61,827 nt of DNA from NCBI GenBank assembly GCA_902558225.1, contig CACEDG010000004.1, positions 1 to 61,827 on the forward strand, written 5' to 3'. The notes beneath the pieces are model-generated. The model worked only from the letters and a program-made list of their open reading frames with translations, made no database searches and was not told the DNA's origin. The position numbers and the translations under genes were made by a program. The stretch comes from an uncultured Pelagibacteraceae bacterium. GTDB taxonomy: Bacteria > Pseudomonadota > Alphaproteobacteria > Pelagibacterales > Pelagibacteraceae. The first letter of the stretch is position 1. Each line of letters opens with the position of its first letter. Shown here in pieces: positions 45,279 to 52,158 of the stretch.

Positions 45279-45301
45279 TTTACTCCTTTTTTAGTACTTT
45301 T

Positions 45302-45340
45302 GCTTTATGCAAGGCGCACAATAAAGTTCAAATGCCTACC
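45302..45340 (-). promoter_or_regulatory. SAM-V riboswitch aptamer upstream of metY
   Basis: Read on the minus strand, stem AGGC/GCCT (45334-45337 with 45312-45315) encloses a loop containing CTTTAT, which can pair with ATAAAG (45303-45308) just downstream, giving an H-type pseudoknot. It ends about 14 nt before the AAGGAG at 45283-45288. This is the layout of SAM-V, a class described in SAR11 bacteria before metY and thought to act on translation. Pairing was found by eye; no covariance search was run. Confidence 0.8.
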
Positions 45341-45357
45341 GAATTTGTATGATGATT

Positions 45358-49938: not shown

Positions 49939-50892
49939 TTATATTTTAACTTTATTTAAAGCATTGTTTTTGAATATATTCGCTTCTCTTATGTATCTTC
50001 TAACCATTTGAGTTGTTTTGTGGCCAGTCATTGCCATAATACTACGTTCATCAGCTCCAGATTCTGCAGCAACTGTTGCAAAGCCTGATCTCAAGCTATG
50101 ACCCGAAAAATTTTTATTATCAATACCTGCTAAATTTAGATATTCTTTTATCAATAAAACTACTGATTGATCTGTTAATCTTTTTTCTGTAAGAGATAAA
50201 CCTTTTGCAAATCTTCTAAAAATAGGTCCAGATTTTATATTGGAAATTTGTAGCCATTTTTTAAGATTAATCACTGGACAATAGTTTTCATTTGTAAAGT
50301 AGGGCAGTCCTTTGATCATTCCTTCACCAAATTGATCGGTTTTCGATCTTCTGATGGTAATTTTAAGACCTTCAGGTACAAATTCTAAATCTTCATAATC
50401 AATTGAAATAAGTTCAGTTCTTCTGAAACCACCTCCAAATCCAACTAAGATAATTGATTTGTCTCTAAACTTCTTTATTTCATCAATTTTTTGCTCATCT
50501 ATTACATTAATTATCTTTTTTAAATGATTGATTAATATAGGTTTTTTTCCAATTTGAATGCTTCCTTTTACCCTTTTTATCCCCATTAAATTTTCAACAA
50601 TAATTGGATGTTTTGTATCTAAATAATGTCCTTTTAATCTATGAACCATACTTATTGACACTAATCTTCTTCTTAAAGTGCTAATTTTTGAATTTTTAGA
50701 AAGATGTGTAAGGTATAAAGAAACTATTTTTGGCTCTGATGGTAAAGAATTAAAACCATGTCTAGTACAAAAAGCACCAAAATCCTTAAAATCTGATTTA
50801 TAAGCTCTTAAGGTGTTATTTGCTTTAGAGCTTTTGAGGTTATTTAAAGTTGCCTCGTGAAGCGATTTAAGGTCCGTTGTAAGTTCATTCAT
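49939..50892 (-). CDS. Tyrosine recombinase / site-specific integrase
   Basis: Phage-integrase family recombinase of 317 residues with an N-terminal SAM-like core-binding domain (residues 10-100) and a catalytic domain. Active-site residues are all present: Arg157 (GFRRTEL), Lys184 (RRSKTDQ), His265-x-x-Arg268 (SGHSLRSGF), His291 (MTGHKTTQ) and Tyr300 (VRRYIREA). It is convergent with hddA with a 3-nt gap and stands at the edge of the accessory region, beside a structured RNA. Whether it mobilises this region is not known. Confidence 0.93.
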   Translation of the reverse strand: MNELTTDLKSLHEATLNNLKSSKANNTLRAYKSDFKDFGAFCTRHGFNSLPSEPKIVSLYLTHLSKNSKISTLRRRLVSISMVHRLKGHYLDTKHPIIVENLMGIKRVKGSIQIGKKPILINHLKKIINVIDEQKIDEIKKFRDKSIILVGFGGGFRRTELISIDYEDLEFVPEGLKITIRRSKTDQFGEGMIKGLPYFTNENYCPVINLKKWLQISNIKSGPIFRRFAKGLSLTEKRLTDQSVVLLIKEYLNLAGIDNKNFSGHSLRSGFATVAAESGADERSIMAMTGHKTTQMVRRYIREANIFKNNALNKVKI

Positions 50893-50972
50893 ACTATTAC
50901 TATTGATAACAATTAATTATCATTAGTAATATATCAAGTGATTTTAAATGTCAATAGTTTAAATTAAAATAT

Positions 50973-51146
50973 ATGGGTTCGATTGATGGAGAAATTCCTG
51001 CAGTATGGTTTTTAATCAGTTCAATTGGTTTTGTTATATTAACTATTATTCAATTTCGAAACACAGGAAAAAGCTTCAATACAATTTTTTTATCTATAAT
51101 GGCAATCATATTTTTAGCAAGTTACTTGATTTTGCTAACCAAATAG
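50973..51146 (+). CDS. Small two-helix membrane protein
   Basis: An open frame of 57 codons from ATG 50973 to TAG 51144, short enough to be missed by length filters. It has the look of a real protein: an acidic N-terminus (MGSIDGEIP), a hydrophobic helix at about 11-26 (VWFLISSIGFVILTII), a basic turn (QFRNTGKSFN) and a second hydrophobic helix at about 38-55. No family is recognised. It is divergent from the integrase, 80 nt from its start. Confidence 0.55.
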   Translation: MGSIDGEIPAVWFLISSIGFVILTIIQFRNTGKSFNTIFLSIMAIIFLASYLILLTK

Positions 51147-51244
51147 AAAGTTATCACCATTATTCACAAAAAAATATTAGATTTTAAAAAAACAACTATT
51201 TAGTGATACCCTATTTAATTCAACTTTGTTATTAAAGATATGAA

Positions 51245-51418
51245 TTAAGAGGCAACTCTTAACTGGCCAATTGGAGAAAAGCCGAGAGGTACAATTCCAG
51301 GGGGCAGAAAGCTTCACAAAGCATCGCTGAACATGTGAGGCGGGAGGTATGGCGGTAGCGCATCAACGACGTACCAAAAACAACTGTTCTTTGCACCTTT
51401 AAAAGTGCAAGGAAACAG
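51245..51418 (+). ncRNA. Unidentified GC-rich structured RNA ending in a terminator-like hairpin
   Basis: The region rises to roughly half G+C, in a window where non-coding DNA is overwhelmingly A/T. It starts with a perfect 7-bp hairpin with GNRA tetraloop (TTAAGAG-GCAA-CTCTTAA, 51245-51262). GGTAC (51288-51292) can pair with GTACC (51371-51375), enclosing a hairpin GCTT-CACA-AAGC (51311-51322) and CGCT/AGCG (51325-51328 with 51357-51360). It does not fit tmRNA, RNase P, SRP, TPP, FMN, glycine or cobalamin elements that I can recall. 6S RNA, or a leader element for the alkyltransferase gene, remain possible. Confidence 0.6.
51384..51418 (+). terminator. Terminator-like hairpin before the alkyltransferase gene
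   Basis: CTGTTCTTTGCAC pairs with GTGCAAGGAAACAG (one bulged A and one G-U) around an eight-base loop, and GTGTTTTCTTATT follows. It may end the structured RNA or act as an attenuator, because the next gene starts 15 nt later. Confidence 0.6.
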
Positions 51419-51433
51419 GTGTTTTCTTATTAA

Positions 51434-51709
51434 ATGACACTCAAAGGCACAAAATTTCAATTAAAAGTTTGGAAGTATTTAAAAAATATCCCTAAGGGTC
51501 AAGTTAAAACCTATAAACAAGTTGCAATAAGCATTAAATGCCCAAAATCAGCTCGTGCTGTGGCTAATGCTTGTGCTAAAAACCCATATGCCCCAAAAAT
51601 ACCTTGTCATAGAGTAATTAGGTCTGATGGGACCCTTGGAGGCTACTCTGGAAGAGGTGGAATAAAGCAAAAGCTCAAATTACTAAGATCTGAAAAGGTA
51701 GCAATTTAG
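51434..51709 (+). CDS. MGMT/Ogt-family DNA alkyltransferase domain protein
   Basis: A 91-residue protein equal to the C-terminal catalytic domain of O6-methylguanine-DNA methyltransferase. FQLKVWKYLKNIPKGQVKTYKQVA is the helix-turn-helix part, and the acceptor cysteine is in KIPCHRVIRSDGTLGGYSG. The PCHR cysteine means it is not an ATL (which has Trp there). The usual N-terminal domain is absent, as in some short Ogt proteins. The region before its ATG holds a structured RNA and a hairpin, with no ribosome site. Confidence 0.85.
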   Translation: MTLKGTKFQLKVWKYLKNIPKGQVKTYKQVAISIKCPKSARAVANACAKNPYAPKIPCHRVIRSDGTLGGYSGRGGIKQKLKLLRSEKVAI

Positions 51710-52158
51710 CCCTATTTTGATGCTTTTTTAAGTTAAAAAAGTTAATAAATTCAACGTTTTTTTACCTTTTTATCTGTTTTTTTCTTAAATAACATAATTC
51801 GCCCTTCAGTTGTACCATATATTAGCCTATACCTAAAATAGACCCTTCTATGGGCGTTTAAATGGTATATTCGAATAGCGCATCGCTCTACTATTCAACT
51901 ATATCAATGCTTCTGGTATCCTCCATTCTTACTGAATTTCTTATCCACAATTGTAAAAAAACTCTTGTTTATATAGATTATTTGATGATTTTTATTATTT
52001 GTCAGAATTTTGAGCTTTTTAGTGAGCATTAGGTTGATTTAATATAAAATAATTGAAAATATGCTACAAGTAAATTATAAAGAAAATTCAATAAATACAA
52101 TAATTTACATTAAATACTTAAAGTAATACATTAATTAATAGTAAACAAACAATACCTA
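51710..52158. other. 449-nt gene-free region with a perfect DnaA box
   Basis: The longest stretch without a gene. No open frame is convincing. Features seen are: TTATCCACA at 51941-51949, a perfect DnaA 9-mer; a dyad GAATAG (51873-51878) / CTATTC (51891-51896) with an inner AGCG-CAT-CGCT; and an AT-only tract at about 52040-52158. A single DnaA box could be chance or regulatory. No further 9-mers were noticed nearby. Confidence 0.5.

Follow-up and report, generated by a model that had tools for sequence, protein, structure and literature searches.

The window, i.e., the whole stretch of 61,827 nucleotides analysed here, carries at 51238..51377 on the plus strand the core of a copy of IMES-2, a catalogued SAR11 RNA of unknown function, which overlaps the segment 51245-51418 singled out in a first-pass annotation made from the letters alone. 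On its upstream side lie a tyrosine recombinase gene (Phage_integrase, PF00589, 70.3 bits) on the minus strand at 49939..50892 and a 57-aa ORF on the plus strand at 50973..51146; on its downstream side, at 51434..51709 of the plus strand, follows the gene of a 91-aa protein with the MGMT/Ogt DNA-binding domain (PF01035, 110.9 bits; TIGR00589 ogt, 100.8 bits). Both the ORF and the two annotated genes are neighbours of the RNA and not part of it. With only 91 residues, the alkyltransferase comprises the DNA-binding domain with its PCHRV motif and is devoid of the N-terminal domain. The RNA stands out in composition, with a G+C content of 49.3% in 51238-51377 against 28.4% for the window, and just four of 6169 sliding 140-nt segments are equally G+C-rich, all of them overlapping IMES-2; the G+C island noted at first is therefore real, and the richest part of the window. 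The fold of 51230-51430 has a z-score of -5.9, with none of 200 shuffles as good.

The identification comes from the Rfam covariance model RF02035 (IMES-2), which matches 51238-51377 (+) with 143.9 bits (cut-off 54.7; E 2.3e-37) across the full model, positions 1-141 of 141, so that the score exceeds the gathering score over the whole model; the four-hairpin consensus structure of the family is likewise present in the window RNA, as judged from the model alignment and from covariation in 47 relatives. No other Rfam family reached its cut-off at 51238-51377, three weaker matches (E up to 5) remaining far below theirs, and the initial statement that the stretch fits no RNA class was mistaken, since the Rfam check returned RF02035. 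In Rfam, IMES-2 is classed as 'Gene'. The first description of the family is reportedly that of Weinberg and others in 2009, in a set of marine RNAs of unusual abundance, and the 2009 papers of Weinberg and of Shi are said to be its founding papers. No functional account of IMES-2 was found in the literature searched, a body of work outside which the founding papers lie; in the text that this literature made available, the whole word 'IMES-2' occurs in a giant squid genome paper only and 'RF02035' nowhere, and the accessible portions of PMC2704228, PMC2864571, and PMC5069720 do not name IMES-2. The family itself is already known; the loop-loop helix, the promoter elements, and the pattern of presence and absence are results obtained here that may perhaps already have been published. 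Compared with RF02035, membership is identical, with the same hairpins and a full-length match, and the additions of the present analysis are the loop-loop helix, the promoter region, the terminator, the host genera, the chromosomal sites, and the presence or absence of the RNA. IMES-1, a marine orphan RNA, shares the name series with IMES-2 but forms a separate Rfam family (RF02034); its replacing IMES-2 was considered and set aside, as nothing was found in 297 genomes of the order, although the control of that search was silent too and the absence of IMES-1 is not established by it.

The RF02035 model matched 52 of 101 genomes in the genus of the window and 140 of 297 in the order (75 of 150 among the good genomes), distributed over four of the 11 genera of the order, labelled g1, g2, g5, and g6, with a single copy per genome among the matches listed; two g2 genomes have a divergent form, at 68.7 and 62.1 bits. 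A search of 385 genomes from the class yielded a match in the own genome and in these two of g2 only. When named genomes were scanned with an exact pattern, at least 119 stretches were retrieved; among the 80 listed, all five tested rows labelled Pelagibacteraceae or Pelagibacterales were IMES-2, in agreement with the SAR11 origin guessed from the letters, and 16 rows of other taxa among the matches listed reached at most 13.2 bits with the model. A SAR11 host is thus supported by the relatives, and expression of IMES-2 as an RNA is predicted. Seven viral contigs with the short pattern gave no score above 9.9 bits with the IMES-2 model, and a second viral pattern and a phage collection yielded no IMES-2; presence in phage or viral records, which would mark a phage-borne RNA, was not found in these searches, whose two viral pattern scans are exact and could let divergent copies escape. 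Divergent copies were also sought in 22 IMES-less genomes, where model R2 reached 18 bits at best and the four places read had no visible IMES-2 features, and in 289 class genomes, where the hits of model R1 besides the own genome stayed at or below 13.5 bits, a negative that carries no weight here, since R1 missed G101.

The structure was evaluated on two alignments, one of 47 dereplicated relatives (A2), from which the two g2 rows were left out, and one of 67 rows, 64 of them distinct (A3), which includes g2 and was fitted to the stems and not to the loop-loop helix described below. In the 47 rows, the Rfam stems together with the loop-loop helix are paired in 94.9% of cells, and changes on both sides affect 26 of 45 pairs (222 cells), a figure that none of 500 shuffles attained; slid versions of the structure pair in 31-40%. 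The covariation check suggested at first for the stems accordingly gave a strong signal in relatives. Hairpin P1 (51245..51262, +) has the 7-bp stem and GNRA tetraloop already recognised in the first reading, with 100% of cells paired, changes on both sides at three of seven pairs, and GCAA as its loop in every one of the 47 relatives aligned. Hairpin P2 (51263..51307, +) consists of an outer and an inner stem (94.4% and 92.0% of cells paired, respectively), an internal loop, and an end loop that is GAGA in the window; across the alignment this loop reads GAGA in 44 rows, GCAA in two, and AAGA in one, i.e., GNRA in 46 of 47. All eight pairs of hairpin P3 (51311..51341, +) change on both sides, with 97.3% of cells paired, and hairpin P4 (51346..51375, +) is paired in 88.7% of cells, one of its nine pairs being non-canonical in every row. 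Four covarying hairpins with two GNRA tetraloops are supported by these comparisons.

The long-range GGTAC/GTACC pair also read from the window is not supported by the 47 relatives, in which one of its five pairs fails in 23 rows and two others in 6 and 7, and in which double-sided change is limited to one pair, a level that shuffles reach as well. Its 3' strand pairs inside hairpin 4, and those five pairs hold in 47 of 47. Although its percentage of pairing was equalled or exceeded by only 2 of 500 shuffles and its covariation score by 3 of 500, the candidate was rejected because of the broken pairs and the use of the 3' strand within hairpin 4. Conservation is at least as high outside the stems as within them: 28 of 44 unpaired core columns are conserved at 95% or more, against 33 of 78 paired columns, in a comparison that sets apart seven 5'-end columns (1 of 7 at 95%) and 12 loop-loop columns (7 of 12). 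Many of the conserved unpaired columns lie in the GNRA loops and in short internal loops.

A pairing between the loops of hairpins 3 and 4 is proposed as a fifth element of IMES-2, and is supported by covariation. The P3 loop (51324..51329, +) would provide the 5' side of this loop-loop, or kissing, helix and the P4 loop (TAGCGC; 51356..51361, +) the 3' side, with five of six pairs forming in the window; the two loops bear related, highly conserved GUAGCGC motifs (GUAGCGCUA and GGUAGCGC), between which six pairs are possible. The helix is paired in 97.9% of cells in the 47 rows, with three pairs and seven cells changed on both sides, and in 97.1% in the 64 distinct rows including g2, with nine cells changed on both sides. 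The double changes, at three of the six pairs (C-G to U-A, G-C to A-U, and G-C to U-A), are found in rows from g5 (L069), g6 (L066, L111), g2 (L057, L058), and g1 (L074, L081), rows that do not represent independent events. Two pairs are invariant, the outermost fails in 9 of 64 rows, the window included, and the innermost in two. The centre pair (GC in 59 rows, AU in 5) ranks 17th among the column pairs that pair in more than 85% of rows, and two column pairs outside the structure outscore it; the count of further pair types is not above shuffles, 314 of 500 being as high. When slid by +1, the helix has 10 doubly changed cells instead of 9, but only 25% of its cells pair. The P3-P4 pairing may also be established between two RNA molecules. 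The helix is missing from the structure line printed by cmscan, a line in which pseudoknots are not displayed; it may nevertheless be recorded in Rfam or in the original paper. A mimicry of tRNA-Pro was considered as well, as the P4 loop shares GGTAGCGCATC with the tRNA-Pro of the window; this likeness is taken as chance, because other genomes change the P4 loop together with the P3 loop.

Upstream of the core, a conserved block is located in what would be the -35 region of a promoter (51201..51208, +), reading TAGTGATA in the window and AAGTGATA in most loci. With at most one mismatch, AAGTGATA is found in 46 of 48 dereplicated loci (of 67), against a mean of 3.5 and a maximum of 7 in shuffles, and its best match starts 35-38 nt before the RNA (-35 to -38) in 48 of 48. 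The block was not seen by eye upstream of the RNase P RNA genes of 8 genomes, its loose pattern is no more frequent than the reversed control, and 22 matches to AAGTGATAC alone occur in the window where 15.8 would be expected, a number reached by 6 of 100 shuffles. A putative extended -10-like element (TG-T-TATTAA; 51227..51235, +) was read by eye from the upstream sequences and was not reported by a sigma-70 scan. Further upstream, at 51151..51168 (+), two tandem 9-mers (TTATCACCA TTATTCACA) resemble DnaA boxes and match a composite pattern, being the only match with at most one mismatch among the seven listed for the own genome; genome-wide, this pattern is no more frequent than its reversed control. 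DnaA-box-like sequences occur at -74 to -87 in other loci, and TTATNCACA, a 9-mer that resembles the DnaA-box consensus, was recovered with one mismatch or none in 44 of 48 loci, whereas shuffles averaged 3.9 and never exceeded 11. The shuffles used for the upstream elements ignore relatedness, and g2 contributes one of the 48 loci; the stronger argument is therefore that the spacing of the elements is similar in g1, g5/g6, and g2, whose flanking genes are not the same. The link of the putative 9-mers to DnaA is a lead only.

On the other side of the core, a terminator-like hairpin with a T-rich tail occupies 51378..51429 (+), according to the fold of 51378-51427. The hairpin itself (51378-51424) has a folding energy of -19.3 kcal/mol and a z-score of -4.1, which confirms the long 3' hairpin and T-rich run described earlier before the ATG at 51434; a simple terminator scan found none. 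In all 67 loci the 3' stretch folds with at least 12 pairs and an energy of -12 kcal/mol or better; at least four consecutive T follow it in 58 of them (47 of 49 in g1, 2 of 2 in g2, and 9 of 16 in g5/g6), the run being short or broken in the other nine, seven of which belong to g5/g6. When the window is compared with the IMES-less locus L161, the homologous flanks leave 311 nt in the former and 27 nt in the latter, which corresponds to a unit of about 284 nt. The unit absent from this near relative holds the promoter region, the RNA, and the terminator.

The surroundings of the RNA differ among genera. In g1, MGMT follows IMES-2 in 94 of 95 loci with at least 350 nt downstream and, counted per genome (with one shorter locus added and eleven genomes fetched twice counted once), in 84 of 85, at a distance of 44-63 nt in 81 of 84; its presence at loci L080, L095, L101, and L103 was found by tblastn. 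Together with the terminator-like hairpin directly before the ATG, this constancy would be expected if the RNA were a cis-regulatory leader or riboswitch of the MGMT gene, a role that is nevertheless very unlikely. MGMT is not found within 700 nt of IMES-2 in any of 16 g5/g6 or two g2 loci; the RNA follows there, in 16 of 16 and 2 of 2 cases, genes that appear from their sequences to be mnmA and an SNase-like gene, respectively, and the next gene is on the other strand in 17 of 18. In L019, the single g1 exception, an mnmA-like gene stands on one side of the RNA and the gene found downstream in g5/g6 on the other; in L014 and L015 the RNA is enclosed by the recombinase and an ORF like the 57-aa ORF, which comes to stand between RNA and MGMT. 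Conversely, MGMT is present without the RNA in 19 of 19 recombinase loci of IMES-less genomes, where a small ORF similar to the 57-aa ORF runs straight or almost straight into MGMT at the would-be place of the RNA in 12 of 19, by eye. A conserved co-oriented position before the gene regulated, as a leader would have across lineages, holds in g1 only. Since the RNA, the promoter block, and the 3' hairpin are kept where MGMT is absent, the regulatory leader of alkylation repair put forward as one alternative in the first-pass annotation does not stand as the conserved role, and the other, an independent small RNA, does; an effect of IMES-2 on MGMT is possible in g1, given the short spacing there. 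Because the contexts differ by genus and the whole unit is missing in relatives, IMES-2 appears to be free-standing, a reading supported for a single-copy unit found at several chromosomal sites and absent as a whole from relatives.

The same unit has features that might instead reflect replication or mobility: the DnaA-box-like 9-mer of most loci, the tyrosine recombinase upstream of the RNA in 41 of 41 wide g1 loci, the several unrelated sites, the patchy presence, and a pair of short, imperfect direct repeats, of 13 and 12 nt, that flank the RNA in the window. On a tree of the recombinase gene (60 rows), presence requires 13 changes, four of them forced by well-supported branches; among 500 label shuffles, 17 required no more. 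Because the gene may itself recombine, its tree cannot be read as that of the species, and gain and loss are indistinguishable on it. An origin or mobile-element RNA is still quite improbable. The recombinase is as common without the RNA, being present at 69-94% identity in 19 of 22 IMES-less genomes picked from the no-match rows listed, and it does not appear among the ORFs, up to five per side, printed for g5/g6 and g2; the flanking repeats, at 10 or more of 12 positions identical, recur in 20 of 67 loci against 11 in a cross-locus control, hardly an excess, and were discarded; and neither the exact scans of viral contigs nor the phage collection gave a real match. The replication-origin idea was rejected on GC skew, sampled over a third of each genome, which places the RNA close to the peak of the cumulative curve in G115 and away from both extremes in G101, and on the g5/g6 and g2 neighbours, which are not recognised oriC genes. 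A 6S-like RNA, which would mimic an open promoter and bind RNA polymerase, had also been suggested, and IMES-2 is compact and free-standing, as 6S is; moreover, RF00013 found no match in 24 SAR11 genomes, of which 14 carry IMES-2 and 10 lack it (six of 14 control genomes gave a hit, four over the cut-off), so that the role could be vacant, 6S being lost in SAR11 or perhaps too divergent. But 6S is one long hairpin with a central bubble, an architecture different from four hairpins with a proposed loop-loop helix, RF00013 has no match in the window, and the 10 IMES-less genomes tested have neither RNA; the 6S-like suggestion is unsupported, and such a function is highly improbable. A trans-acting antisense RNA, pairing with mRNAs through its conserved loops, is unlikely: the related motifs of the P3 and P4 loops could be read as target-binding sites, but they change in concert and thereby preserve their mutual pairing, so that no target is needed to account for their similarity, and no other long unpaired conserved stretch was seen in IMES-2. 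The conservation of unpaired core columns, which is no lower than that of paired ones, also points to protein binding or tertiary contacts rather than to antisense action.

Taken together, IMES-2 is probably a SAR11 gene with its own promoter region and terminator, whose product would be a compact, trans-acting, protein-binding RNA and neither a leader nor an antisense RNA. From the unit of about 280 bp, a transcript of about 190 nt would be made and end at its own terminator; the transcript, with ends predicted from these elements, would fold into a compact particle and act in trans by binding a protein, as a decoy or a scaffold. Its synthesis would be under the control of the AAGTGATA block and, perhaps, of DnaA bound to the 9-mers upstream. 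A more specific version makes IMES-2 a cell-cycle-linked RNA regulator of only about half of the SAR11 lineages: DnaA bound to a tandem box 70-90 nt upstream would gate the transcription of a unit of about 284 bp, the kissing-loop product would titrate a core protein, and the unit would be gained and lost as a whole by recombination. This version is distinctly unlikely, although, if true, it would mean that SAR11 populations carry two physiological types. Half of the good genomes lack IMES-2, which is therefore dispensable. SAR11 bacteria count among the most abundant marine cells and possess few regulators; now that hosts, unit, promoter region, and a proposed tertiary contact are at hand, an orphan marine RNA motif can be probed as a gene, for whose function natural relatives with and without IMES-2 provide a ready-made comparison. 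Among structured bacterial RNAs, OLE, ROOL, and GOLLD are described in PMC12286853 as large and as forming homo-oligomeric complexes, whereas IMES-2 measures about 190 nt with its terminator.

Some further observations concern the neighbourhood. The recombinase (window 49939-50940) is XerC/D-like and occupies this site in g1 genomes whether or not they carry IMES-2; a similar TATTGATAAC.ATTAATTATC.TTAGTAATATAT stretch precedes its start in the window and in the IMES-less loci printed. A SAM-V riboswitch aptamer lies at 45280-45346 (-), with 80.9 bits. Downstream of MGMT, the stretch 51795-51885 of the window (CGCCCTTCAGTTGTACCATATAT ... AATGGTATATTC) recurs closely in some IMES-less relatives, L161 and L162 among them, and is possibly another structured or regulatory element.
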